DNA from: Massilia aquatica
Lineage (GTDB): Bacteria > Pseudomonadota > Gammaproteobacteria > Burkholderiales > Burkholderiaceae_D
DNA: 64,000 nt
Reading direction: 5' to 3'
NCBI RefSeq assembly: GCF_011682045.1
Contig: NZ_VVIW01000002.1
Span: forward strand, 1-64,000
This document shows, piece after piece, positions 3,653 to 50,076 of this stretch (position 1 is the stretch's first letter; every line of letters starts with the position of its first letter). The notes under the pieces are model-generated. The model saw nothing but the letters and a program-made list of their open reading frames with translations, was not told where the DNA came from and ran no database searches. Position numbers and translations under genes: made by a program.

Positions 3653-5338
3653 TTACTCCGTTACCGCCAGCGCTTTGTCGGCCCGCACCAGCTGCCGGTT
3701 CACCGCGCTCAGCACCGCCTTGAACGAGGCCGTCACGATATTGCTGTCGATCCCCGCGCCGAACATGGTCGGACCATTCTCCAGGCGCAATTCCACATAA
3801 CATGCCGCCTTGGCGTTGGCGCCCGAGCCGATCGCGTGCTCGTGGTAGTCCATCAGCTTGATATCGAGTCCCAGCGCGTTGACGAAAGCGTCGATCGGCC
3901 CGTTGCCGCCACCCTGCAAACTCAGGCTGGCCTGGCGGTGCGCCAGGGTAATATCGATCTGCACCGGCTCGTCGCTGCTGCTGTCTTCCACCATCTTGTG
4001 CGCGCTGTAGGCGTACGGGCTGGTCTGGTCGAAATACTCGCTGCAGAAGATCGCATGAATCTCCTTGGCCGCAATCTCGCGTCCGCTGGCGTCGGCCACC
4101 GCCTGTACCGCCCGGCTGAACTCGATCTGCAGGCGGCGCGGCAAGCTCAAGCCGAATTCCTGTTCCAGCAGATACGCCATCCCGCCCTTGCCGGACTGGC
4201 TGTTGACGCGAATCACCGCGTCATAACTGCGCCCCAGATCGGCCGGGTCGATCGGCAAATACGGCACTTCCCACAAGGTATTCGGCTTTTGCTGGGCAAA
4301 GCCTTTCTTGATCGCATCCTGGTGCGAACCGGAAAACGCGGTAAATACCAGGTCGCCCGCATACGGATGACGCGGATGCACCGGCAACTGGTTGCATTCT
4401 TCCACCACCTGGCGCACGGCGTCGATATCGGAGAAATCGAGCCCCGGATGCACGCCCTGGGTGTACAGATTCATCGCCAGGGTGACCAGGTCGACATTGC
4501 CGGTGCGCTCGCCGTTGCCGAACAGACAACCTTCGACCCGGTCGGCGCCCGCCATGATGGCCAGCTCGGCCGATGCCACGGCCGTGCCGCGGTCGTTGTG
4601 CGGATGGACGCTGATGATCAGCGCATCGCGCCGCGCCAGCTTGCGCGACATCCACTCGATCTGGTCCGCGTACACGTTGGGCGTGCTGCACTCCACGGTG
4701 GAAGGCAGGTTGACGATCATCTTGTTGTTCGGCGTCGGCTGCCAGATATCGCTGACGGCGTCGCAGATGTGCTTGGAGAAATCCAGTTCCGTGGTCGAAA
4801 ACGATTCCGGCGTATATTCGAAGCCCCAGTCGGTCTGCGGATGCTGCTTGACCAGTTCCTTGACCAGTTTGGTGCCGCTGACCGCGATCTCGGTGATCTG
4901 CTCGCGCGTCATGCCGAATACGACCTTGCGGAACACCGGCGCCACCGAGTTATACAAGTGCACGATGGCACGGCGCGCGCCCACGGCGGAGTCGACCGTG
5001 CGGCGGATCAGTTCCTCGCGCGACTGGGTCAGCACGATGATGGTCACGTCCTCGGGAATGCGGTCTTCATCGATCAGCTTGCGTACGAAATCGAAGTCGG
5101 TCTGGGAGGCGGACGGAAAACCGACTTCGATTTCCTTGAGGCCGATCTTGACCAGCATCTCGAAGAAACGCAGCTTTTTCTCCGGGCTCATCGGCTCGAT
5201 CAGGGCCTGGTTGCCGTCGCGCAGGTCGGTGCTCATCCAGATCGGCGGCCGGGTGATGGCGTTGTCAGGCCACTGGCGGGCGGACAAATTGACTGGAGGG
5301 AAAGCGCGGTATTTGGACGATGGATTCTGCAACATCAT
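3653..5338 (-). CDS. leuA: 2-isopropylmalate synthase
   Basis: A 561-residue type-2 LeuA that condenses acetyl-CoA with 2-ketoisovalerate, the first committed step of leucine synthesis. The N-terminal TIM-barrel motif is TDLRDGNQA, with the metal-binding [14 protein letters not shown] and [15 protein letters not shown] central subdomain follows, and the C-terminal LeuA regulatory domain (about residues 430-561) would bind leucine for feedback inhibition. AGGAG sits 6 bases before the ATG at 5338; an ATG one codon later is possible. The gene is separated from its promoter by about 290 bases that contain two leucine-rich mini-ORFs (described separately), which suggests attenuation by leucine supply. 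Confidence 0.96.
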
Positions 5339-5417
5339 GGGGTACTCCTGTTTGGCGAAAGCGAATGGGGGCCGGGCGGCGCTGTGGCGAGAGGCTGCCG
5401 GGCGGCCACGAATAACG

Positions 5418-5483
5418 CTAGGCCAGGCAACCGATCGGTAGCTTTAGCAGTAGAAACTGGGTGATGGAGACGGATGCGAACAT
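5418..5483 (-). CDS. Putative second leuA leader peptide (CTA-rich)
   Basis: A 21-codon ORF ending 79 bases before leuA. Codons 11-15 read CTA CTG CTA AAG CTA (Leu Leu Leu Lys Leu), so three of its CTA codons lie within five positions in a genome that otherwise strongly prefers CTG and CTC. An AGGA lies about 10 bases upstream of the ATG. Slow translation of CTA under leucine or tRNA-Leu limitation would stall a ribosome here, the classic design of a branched-chain amino-acid leader. I infer a regulatory peptide. I could not find a convincing terminator with a U-run between it and leuA, so the mechanism (transcriptional, Rho-dependent or translational) is open. Confidence 0.6.
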
Positions 5484-5546
5484 GGGTCGAGCTTTCCTGG
5501 GGTTTTACAACTCGCCGGCGGGGAGCCGGGCGGCGCACTGCGGTGA

Positions 5547-5630
5547 TTACGCGCGTGCAGCTAGTAGCGTCGCTAGCGATAGCGCGCCAGCGAGCAGGGG
5601 GAAAGACGACAGATGCAGGGAAGATGACAT
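5547..5630 (-). CDS. Putative first leuA leader peptide (CTA-rich, possibly leaderless)
   Basis: A 27-residue ORF. Eight of its residues are leucine, and the last four leucines (positions 17, 19, 22 and 23) are all encoded by CTA within seven codons. A consensus -35/-10 pair lies immediately upstream and would start transcription at about the A of its ATG, so the peptide would be translated from a leaderless or nearly leaderless mRNA. No Shine-Dalgarno sequence is present. It lies about 210 bases upstream of leuA in the same direction. The codon pattern is very unlikely by chance in DNA this GC-rich. Translation is inferred, not shown. Confidence 0.65.
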   Translation of the reverse strand: MSSSLHLSSFPLLAGALSLATLLAARA

Positions 5631-5636
5631 GAGTTC

Positions 5637-5666
5637 ACTGTACGTCAGGCCGCGCCGGCTTGTCAA
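5637..5666 (-). promoter_or_regulatory. Putative sigma-70 promoter of the leu leader/leuA transcript
   Basis: On the minus strand a perfect TTGACA (5661-5666) is followed after 18 bases by TACAGT (5637-5642, 4 of 6 matches to TATAAT). The predicted start site falls near 5630, at the start codon of the first leader peptide. Confidence 0.6.
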
Positions 5667-5718
5667 GCGCTGATGTGCAACGCTTGCCAACCGCCGCCGC
5701 CAGGCCAGACAGCCGCTG

Positions 5719-6078
5719 CTACAGGTCGAGAAACATGTCGAAGCCGCCGTAGATCATGCGCTTGCCGTCGAAGGGCATGTCGGTGCCTTTCATGAAGTCG
5801 GCCATGCGCGGGTCTTTCATGACCTTGTCGTTGACTTCGTCGCGGTGGGCGCGCGATGCGTACACGATCCAGGAAAACACCACGGTTTCGCCCGGCTGCA
5901 GGTTGACGCTTTGGGGGAAGGAGGTGAGTTTGCCGGGTTTGACGTCGTCGGCGATGCATTCGCGGTACTGCAAGGCGCCATGTTCGCGCCAGATGGCGCC
6001 GCAGGTGGCCGCCATGGCGCGGTAGCTTTCGAGATTGCTGGTGGGGAGGGGAAGGACGAAACCATCGACATAAGCCAT
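5719..6078 (-). CDS. DUF1428 family protein (YbaA-like)
   Basis: A protein of about 119 residues beginning MAYVDGFVLPLP and carrying the pattern typical of DUF1428: an aromatic-rich N-terminus, an EHGALQYREC segment and a C-terminal KRMIYGGFDMFLDL. Members adopt a small dimeric alpha/beta-barrel (ABM-like) fold of unknown biochemical role. AGGAG sits 6 bases before the ATG at 6078; the ATG one codon upstream is too close to it. The gene stands alone. Directly upstream is a tandem 13-bp repeat that could be an operator. Confidence 0.8.
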   Translation of the reverse strand: MAYVDGFVLPLPTSNLESYRAMAATCGAIWREHGALQYRECIADDVKPGKLTSFPQSVNLQPGETVVFSWIVYASRAHRDEVNDKVMKDPRMADFMKGTDMPFDGKRMIYGGFDMFLDL

Positions 6079-6103
6079 CATGTTCTCCTGTCGCTGCACA
6101 ATA

Positions 6104-6323: not shown

Positions 6324-6430
6324 ACGCGCCCCGGGCTACGCGCCCCGGGCTACGCGCCCCGGGCTACGCGCCCCGGGCTACGCGCCCCGGGCTACGCGCC
6401 CCGGGCTACGCGCCCCGGGCTACGCGCCCC
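6324..6430. repeat. 14-bp tandem repeat, seven full copies plus a partial one
   Basis: The unit ACGCGCCCCGGGCT is repeated seven times without a change from 6324 to 6421, then nine more bases match before the array decays. It begins 9 bases beyond the selD stop on that gene's transcript side. Each unit contains a CCCGGG palindrome, so the RNA could fold into alternative short stems. Copy number is likely to vary between strains. Confidence 0.95.
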
Positions 6431-6438
6431 GCGCAGCC

Positions 6439-49020: not shown

Positions 49021-50076
49021 ATGAAAGCATCGACTTTGAAACTGACACTGGCTGCCGCAGCCATTCTGGCAAGCACCCAGGCCATGGCCGGGCCGATCGG
49101 CTATGGCGCCGCCACCACCGGCGGCGGCAGCAAGGCCGCAGTCAATGTAGCTACGCTGGCCGACATGGCGGCGAGGATCAAGGCGTATTCGGGCAGTGGC
49201 GGCCTGGTGCTGAACTACACCGGCAAGTTCGACTTCGCCAGCGTCAAGGATGTCTGCGCGCAGTGGAAAAAACCGGCGCAAACGCTGGAAATCAAGAACA
49301 AGAGCGACATCACGATTCGCGGCTCGGCCGATTCGTCGGCCAACTTCGGCATCCGTATCGTCGGCGATTCGAGCAATGTGATCGTGCAGAACATGACCAT
49401 CGGCCTGCTGCAGGGCGGGGAAGACGCCGATTCGATCTCGATCGAAGGCACTTCGAGCGGCAAGCCAAGCAAGATCTGGGTCGACCACAACACCATCTTC
49501 GCCTCGATCAAATCGTGCCCTGGCGCGGGCGATGCCTCGTTTGACGGCGGCATCGACATGAAGAAGGGCGCCAACCACATCACGGTGTCGTACAACTACG
49601 TGTACAACTACCAGAAAGTGGCATTGAATGGATTCAGTGACAAAGACACGCTCAATGCCGGCTCGCTGACCACCTACCACAACAACCGCTTCGAGAACGT
49701 GAAGTCGCGCCTGCCGCTGCTGCGTTACGGTAAAGCTCATCTCTTCAACAACTACTTCGGCAACGTCGATACCTCGGGCATCAACGTGCGCATGGGCGCG
49801 CTGGCCCTGGTCGAAGCGAACTACTTCGAGAACGTCAGGAACCCTGTCACCTCGCGCGACAGCACCAAGCTTGGTTACTGGGACCTGCGCGACAACTTCG
49901 TCGGCGGCGGCATCACCTGGGGCGCCCCGGACAGCGGCACCTACGCCAACGCCACCGACTGGAAGACCAGCAAAGCCTACGGCCCGACCGGCTACAACTA
50001 CACCGCCGCCGCTGCGGCTGGCGTGAAAGCCAAGGCCATCGCCACGGCCGGCGCGCGCACCAGCCTGGCCCAGTAA
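49021..50076 (+). CDS. Secreted pectate lyase, polysaccharide lyase family 1
   Basis: A 351-residue enzyme with a signal peptide (residues 1-23, cleaved after AMA). It has the parallel beta-helix pattern and the family-1 motifs: KIWVDHNTIF, SFDGGIDMKKGANHITVSYN, then SRLPLLRYGKAHLFNNYF with the conserved R-x-P-x-x-R (Arg230 and Arg235) that contains the catalytic arginine, and NPVTSRDS. It cleaves polygalacturonate by beta-elimination. It is followed 77 bases later by a PL3 lyase, and upstream lies a type II secretion-like operon that could export both. It is probably induced by pectin products. Confidence 0.92.
   Translation: MKASTLKLTLAAAAILASTQAMAGPIGYGAATTGGGSKAAVNVATLADMAARIKAYSGSGGLVLNYTGKFDFASVKDVCAQWKKPAQTLEIKNKSDITIRGSADSSANFGIRIVGDSSNVIVQNMTIGLLQGGEDADSISIEGTSSGKPSKIWVDHNTIFASIKSCPGAGDASFDGGIDMKKGANHITVSYNYVYNYQKVALNGFSDKDTLNAGSLTTYHNNRFENVKSRLPLLRYGKAHLFNNYFGNVDTSGINVRMGALALVEANYFENVRNPVTSRDSTKLGYWDLRDNFVGGGITWGAPDSGTYANATDWKTSKAYGPTGYNYTAAAAAGVKAKAIATAGARTSLAQ

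Follow-up and report, generated by a model that had tools for sequence, protein, structure and literature searches.

A candidate terminator-less leucine attenuator with two CTA-rich leader ORFs upstream of leuA in Massilia aquatica

Analyses of the leuA leader of Massilia aquatica, within a stretch of 64,000 nucleotides (referred to here as the window), and of the corresponding regions in its relatives indicated that leuA is probably controlled by a leucyl-tRNA-responsive, terminator-less, ribosome-mediated attenuator with two sensors in series, a reading to which we assign a probability of roughly 0.6. Comparison with the relatives showed that two short predicted ORFs upstream of leuA both keep in-frame runs of the rarest leucine codon, CTA, and that transcription from the promoter would begin with the ATG of the first (ORF1), which is thus a predicted leaderless ORF. 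The same comparison placed the start of a predicted helix, S1, 5–6 nt past the last CTA codon of the second ORF (ORF2), with the partner strand of S1 inside the span of another helix, S2, and with the predicted ORF2 stop usually just beyond the S1 5' strand.

The CTA-rich ORFs and their promoter

The features of the leader are listed in Table 1. The first-pass annotation of positions 5418–5666 had described a 27-codon ORF with four CTA codons within seven codons and a 21-codon ORF with three within five, and both were confirmed from the sequence. The features it assigned to this interval were found there; the element runs on downstream of it, to 5384. Six bases separate TACAGT from the ORF1 ATG, the A of which is the predicted RNA start. 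At the other end of the leader, the last CTA codon of ORF2 is followed by CCGATC and then by helix S1. Hairpins were seen by eye between the ORFs of several relatives, near the same place as that in the window and with no sequence common to them, and a Shine-Dalgarno-like motif (loose pattern) stood ahead of some in-frame ATG of ORF2 in 47 of 82 relatives. In the minimum-energy fold of the window leader part of ORF1 paired, by eye, with the ORF2 Shine-Dalgarno. Elsewhere in the window, between selD and a DUF1428 gene, positions 6324–6431 hold 7.7 perfect tandem copies of a 14-bp unit (ACGCGCCCCGGGCT).

Table 1. Features of the leuA leader in the window (positions in the 64,000-nucleotide stretch).
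Feature	Position	Strand	Basis or detail
leuA, 2-isopropylmalate synthase, TIGR00970 (leuA_yeast) type	3653..5338	-	803.5 bits vs cut-off 697.4
Promoter, TTGACA (5666-5661), 18 nt, TACAGT (5642-5637)	5637..5666	-	pattern scan
ORF1, 27 codons, leaderless (predicted), MSSSLHLSSFPLLAGALSLATLLAARA	5547..5630	-	ATG at 5630, TAA ends 5547
ORF1 CTA run, CTA TCG CTA GCG ACG CTA CTA	5582-5562	-	sequence
GC-rich hairpin between ORF1 and ORF2, CCGGC-UCCCC-GCCGG, no U-run	5515..5529	-	sequence
ORF2 Shine-Dalgarno-like AGGAAAG	5492..5498	-	sequence
ORF2, 21 codons, CTA at 5453, 5447, 5441 (CTA CTG CTA AAG CTA)	5418..5483	-	sequence
Helix S1 5' strand, GGUUGCCUGGC, begins 6 nt past last CTA codon	5422..5432	-	alignment, covariation
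Helix S1 3' strand, GCCCGGCAGCC, one U-C mismatch in the window's member	5393..5403	-	covariation
Helix S2 5' strand, GUGGC	5405..5409	-	covariation, 99.5% of cells paired
Helix S2 3' strand, GCCAC	5384..5388	-	covariation
C-rich, G-poor stretch from helices to leuA; candidate Rho loading region (inferred)	5351..5383	-	base composition
leuA Shine-Dalgarno AGGAG	5345..5349	-	sequence

The promoter was the only promoter-like site found by a simple scan of 5250–5800 (shuffle mean 0.0). The arrangement TTGACA-17/18-TANANT-6/7-ATG occurred once in the 7,465,160-base genome, at the leuA leader, and not at all when the pattern was read backwards. Exact matches to it were present in 78 of 99 upstream regions from relatives, and in 0 of 99 read backwards. 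A more permissive promoter scan identified an ATG 5–9 nt past the -10 hexamer in 90 of the 99 regions, 71 of those at 6 nt, although these 90 ORF1s include weak or doubtful ones and three loci (L104, L109 and L111) had no TTGACA. Spacing of this kind between the -10 hexamer and the ATG predicts an RNA start on the A of the ATG, and the transcription start that the first-pass annotation had placed at about the first ATG is matched by a geometry that recurs among relatives.

CTA is rare in the genes around this leader. Codon usage was determined from 46 mechanically picked ORFs of at least 150 codons, and in the subset with GC3 >0.7 (12,359 codons) CTA accounted for 7 of 1,234 leucine codons (0.57%); leuA itself uses none (31 CTG, 10 TTG and 3 CTC). 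Among the 714 window ORFs of 8–100 codons on both strands, only ORF1 and ORF2 had at least three CTA per eight codons. When the requirement for an ORF was dropped, two more sites with three CTA per eight triplets appeared, at 49977 and 59790 on the plus strand. The earlier judgment that two such clusters are unlikely to have arisen by chance was thus supported by codon usage and by the ORF survey of the window.

LeuA searches were positive for all 17 genomes of the genus and for 144 of the 145 in the family, some of the matches being to a distant second LeuA-like protein. The 99 leuA upstream regions were counted without a gene fragment (L018, from a gene also in L019) and a locus at a contig end (L047), and 16 further genomes with LeuA-like matches stand outside the count. 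A leaderless-type ORF1 with at least two CTA codons was present in 84 of the 99 regions and missing in 15; the ORF2 element with its helices was present in 82 and missing in 17, these numbers being pattern matches, as the 82 element sequences were picked by patterns written after the first ones had been read. Both occurred together in 79 regions, ORF1 alone in five, the ORF2 element alone in three and neither in 12. Two exceptions retained ORF1: a locus (L060, genome G059) with a leaderless-type ORF1 holding 13 CTA in 65 codons, in which the ORF2 helices were not found, and another (L056, G033:C1) in which the ORF2/helix element was not found, the leaderless ORF1 was kept and an inverted repeat (GGGGTCGGAGCCC...GGGCTCTGACCCC) lies near the place of the element.

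CTA made up 386 of 699 leucine codons across the 90 ORF1s of the permissive scan; over the final 13 codons of the relatives' ORF2 it made up 191 of 380. Of 411 CTA triplets in the 84 ORF1s with at least two CTA, 382 were in frame, as were 115 of 117 near the end of ORF2, with the frame-setting last codon left out. This bias in both ORFs indicated that the codon, and not the base sequence alone, has been kept. The comparative check proposed in the first-pass annotation supported its reading: both ORFs, their frame, the promoter geometry and the tandem order recur in the 79 regions that hold both. The leader therefore has, in predicted translation, the clustered end-product codons before a biosynthetic gene that characterize ribosome-mediated attenuators.

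Helices S1 and S2 and their distance from the CTA codons

Helix S1 (11 bp) and helix S2 (5 bp) are interleaved in the order of an H-type pseudoknot. In the alignment of 82 sequences, 97.2% of the 1,312 cells of S1 and S2 were paired, and changes on both sides occurred in 10 of the 16 base pairs (8 of 11 in S1, 2 of 5 in S2). The number of cells changed on both sides was 45, compared with 10.0 in shuffles, and none of 500 shuffles scored as high on any of five measures; the signal was far lower when the strands were slid out of register. One S1 column pair (40-76) was unpaired in 31 of the 82 sequences, including that of the window. In a covariation scan of 142 ORF2-region sequences, five of the top 45 pairs fell in S1 and were 79–100% paired in weighted sequences, whereas the remaining 40 were paired in at most 66%. 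No S2 pair was among these top 45, and the apparent support for S2 comes from few changes. The top 45 pairs also gave no sign of an additional conserved helix in this region. ORF1 showed no RNA structure covarying comparably to S1 and S2; a search for conserved structure after ORF1 revealed only weak, mismatch-rich hairpins in 37 Massilia-type sequences.

The position of the two helices relative to the CTA codons hardly varies. S1 began 6 nt past the last CTA of ORF2 in 77 of 82 relatives and 5 nt past it in five, a constancy partly imposed by the search pattern, and 71 of 77 had a further CTA two codons ahead of the last. In 67 of the 82, the ORF2 stop followed the S1 5' strand and preceded S2; elsewhere it came before S1 (five), within the S1 5' strand (two) or beyond, with ORF2 reading through the helices (eight). 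In five loci of one genus (L072, L073, L074, L077 and L078, genus g26) ORF2 ends in CTA TGA right before S1, so that the peptide tail is lost and the spacing of 5 nt is kept.

Median stabilities were -16.4 kcal/mol for S1 and -7.9 kcal/mol for the S2 stretch when folded by itself. Only 3–7 nt of loop separate the two 3' strands, which is short for crossing an 11-bp S1, and these loop lengths suggest that S1 and S2 are more likely mutually exclusive alternatives than simultaneous partners. S2 may nevertheless never win over the more stable S1, or the two may form a true pseudoknot.

Proposed mechanism and alternative readings

Given the usual bacterial ribosome footprint, a ribosome stalled on the final pair of CTA codons would reach no further than the base before S1 or about 4 bases into it. 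We propose that when leucine is short, ribosomes would stall at the ORF2 CTA codons and leave S1 free to form, and that when leucine is ample, a ribosome would reach the ORF2 stop and cover the S1 5' strand, enabling S2 to form instead. S1 would then represent the 'on' state, with a stalled ribosome and leuA expressed, and in the 'off' state Rho would terminate transcription early in the C-rich stretch before leuA. ORF1, close to the promoter, would serve as another sensor and couple the first ribosome to the polymerase from the outset. In this scheme leuA would respond to charging of the CTA-reading tRNA; we infer that response, its sign and the off step from the sequence.

The absence of a U-run terminator, noted in the first-pass annotation, held in simple pattern scans. 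No terminator-like site was found in 5250–5800 (shuffle mean 0.4, so that this result is weak alone), and none in the leaders of 73 of 82 relatives; the other nine had weak ones in differing places. Judged by these simple scans, the leader does not conform to a classical transcriptional attenuator with a U-run terminator. A terminator-like variant was seen in one locus of genus g9 (L104), where a short ORF (MTNRSATLRLPNEVTRAR) begins 8 nt past a -10 hexamer before leuA and is followed by a strong hairpin and a U-rich run (CGGCCCGAC...GCATCGGGCCGTTTTG); another locus (L107) looked similar by eye. The stretch between the helices and leuA had a mean of 35% C and 17% G, with C exceeding G in 81 of 82 relatives, compared with 32% C and 25% G in control upstream stretches of the window, where C exceeded G in 19 of 30. 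As neither a conserved terminator nor pairing with the leuA Shine-Dalgarno region was found and the stretch is C-rich and G-poor, we consider early Rho termination before leuA the most likely off step, as a first guess from base composition alone.

Translational attenuation, in which the leader fold would gate ribosome access to the leuA start and leave transcription unaffected, is a possible but unlikely alternative. It would account for the lack of terminator-like sites in the window leader and most relatives, and leaderless leader ORFs with codon runs are common to the leuA leader and the mycobacterial case described below. Its simplest version is opposed by the energies of duplexes between the leader and the leuA Shine-Dalgarno region, which were no better than those of shuffles (mean -14.6 vs -15.1). 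In addition, the best pairing sites were scattered, the fullest 10-nt bin holding 27 of the 82, and relatives differed in how far the leuA ATG lies from the helices (32 to 114 nt).

We consider it improbable that a protein or other factor binds an S1/S2 pseudoknot and that the leader peptides are secondary. The pseudoknot order, the strong conservation, the missing terminator and the place upstream of leuA would all fit such a factor, and one was proposed for the actinobacterial LEU element by the authors of PMC1262725. However, the choice of CTA, its frame and its near-constant spacing to S1 point to the ribosome as the reader.

An attenuator of opposite sign, in which leuA is repressed while the S1/S2 fold is complete and ribosomes finishing ORF2 open that fold, appears very improbable. 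S1 is the stable default fold, and a ribosome that has reached the stop would sit on its 5' strand, as such a reading would have it. This arrangement would turn leuA on at ample leucine, contrary to the sense of known biosynthetic leaders. Lastly, the notion that the CTA clusters are a product of chance or of RNA folding with no coding role, which could appeal to the random origin of short ORFs and to a local ORF1 hairpin that takes in CTA triplets in Massilia-type relatives, is already disfavoured, and is given a very slight chance, by the in-frame bias in both ORFs, their recurrence in most upstream regions and the scarcity of CTA in window genes.

Distribution in Burkholderiales and comparison with known systems

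The element was traced beyond the family with a covariance model, R1, that covers S1 only. In its own genome R1 gave one hit with an E-value of 1.5e-15; the next, at E 1.18, had no LeuA motif nearby, so that no convincing second copy of the element was identified there by this model. A search of 250 genomes of the order with stricter filters gave R1 matches in 16 and missed at least one genome (G173, in which the element was later found in locus L298). LeuA was encoded downstream in all 16 other loci read (L117–L132). Close LeuA proteins were detected in 67 of 200 genomes of the order searched; 64 loci outside the family were read, and R1 matched in 11 of them, in one partly.

A pattern scan of named genomes yielded at least 118 stretches, of which 80 loci were read, so that its counts are not frequencies. 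Among the matches listed, a leaderless ORF1 with CTA was present in 43 of the 80 loci. The 37 without one included two titled Oxalobacteraceae or Massilia (L205 and L211) and two with little upstream DNA (L191 and L211). The matches listed placed the element in Massilia, Duganella, Rugamonas, Collimonas, Noviherbaspirillum, Glaciimonas and Herminiimonas, nearly always with a leaderless ORF1, and also in Achromobacter, Bordetella, Castellaniella, Pusillimonas, Cupriavidus, Lautropia and Pigmentiphaga, where a leaderless ORF1 was not found. ORF2 had no evident Shine-Dalgarno in many loci of Achromobacter, Bordetella and Pusillimonas, and its ATG stood there, by eye, 6–8 nt past a TTGACT-like hexamer that itself lies 17 nt behind a TTGC-type hexamer; on these grounds ORF2 may be the leaderless ORF in these loci. 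Two loci from another family (L298 and L299) had the element together with a CTA-rich, ORF1-like frame. This distribution suggests that the element of ORF2 and its helices is older and that ORF1, seen mostly in Oxalobacteraceae, was added to it.

Leucine-rich ORFs were also observed before leuA in loci that had no R1 match. Three loci of family f49 (L296, L297 and L300) had short ORFs with two or three consecutive CTA codons (SLALLL), which by eye were close behind a -10-like hexamer. A Burkholderia arboris plasmid record (L257) contained a single CTA-rich ORF (MQAAQSLFSLRLLARF...) about 240–340 bases upstream of leuA, with its start, by eye, about 7 nt past a -10-like hexamer behind TTGACA and with a GC-rich hairpin after the ORF. 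In a Sphingomonas plasmid record (L259) a leucine-rich short ORF (MNRSIMIAALLLRSLRLIRP) precedes leuA, and a long stem (CCGCCCTTAGGG...CCCTAAGGGCGG, by eye) directly follows its leucine codons.

We give about an even chance to a broader proposal, that the leader belongs to a class of terminator-less leucine attenuators found across several Burkholderiales families, in which a ribosome on rare CTA codons would choose between interleaved helices, with a leaderless CTA-rich ORF at the transcription start of Oxalobacteraceae as an added sensor of the same codon in series. No published account of the leuA leader was found in the literature searched, most subscription papers lying beyond the reach of that search. 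Similarly, no Rfam family, T-box included, reached its gathering score in 18 loci comprising those of this leader and of Actinobacteria, and the six Rfam matches in the window at 5000–6100 were all below gathering scores (E at least 1.7).

The closest enteric counterpart is leuL-leuABCD of Salmonella and E. coli, where, as here, a leader peptide with CUA codons is encoded before leuA. The enteric leu leader comprises one ORF and an intrinsic terminator, whereas the leader described here has two ORFs, the first predicted to be leaderless, no U-run terminator that we found and helices in pseudoknot order. Replacement of three CUA codons by CUG in the Salmonella leu attenuator lowered its sensitivity, and theory for E. 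coli identifies CUA as the best-suited leucine control codon, according to PMC1183508, which cites Carter et al. 1986 for the former. Gram-negative branched-chain attenuators are described as combining a leader peptide, a terminator and an antiterminator structure (PMC6123439). The leuA leader retains the sensing half of such a system, namely rare-codon runs with helices at a set distance, without any terminator having been found.

The first base of ORF1 seems also to be the first of the RNA, and partial parallels exist for both this start and the tandem order. According to PMC3641672, mgtM and mgtP of the Salmonella mgtCBR operon are tandem short leader ORFs, the second of which is read via the supply of charged tRNA; two short ORFs in series are thus common to both leaders, but the signals and codons of mgtCBR differ, and here the same codon is used twice. 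In mycobacteria, leaderless polycysteine ORFs are reported to act as attenuators, with translational attenuation of cysteine genes of a mycobacterium by a leader attributed to Canestrari et al. 2020 in PMC13236596. Like ORF1, these are leaderless short ORFs with a run of codons for the regulated amino acid; they concern another amino acid in another phylum, and the likeness noted is one of ORF features.

A further likeness is to the actinobacterial LEU element (Seliverstov et al. 2005, PMC1262725), described as a leucine-codon leader ORF and a conserved pseudoknot upstream of leuA, with the leucine run pairing with the leuA Shine-Dalgarno box. Both elements have a leader ORF with a leucine run and helices in pseudoknot order before leuA (a predicted pseudoknot in our case), but the base stem between leucine codons and Shine-Dalgarno reported for the LEU element was not seen here, where such pairing was no better than in shuffles. 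R1, which models S1 only, found no match at E up to 1 in three actinobacterial leuA loci (L254–L256). By eye, a leucine-run ORF starts 6–10 nt past a -10-like hexamer in L255 and L256 and, less clearly, in L254. These comparisons raise the question of whether Actinobacteria and Burkholderiales arrived at a similar solution upstream of leuA genes of one type. The leuA leader would provide a natural test system in which one gene would be controlled by a leaderless upstream ORF, by a series of two like sensors and by interleaved helices.
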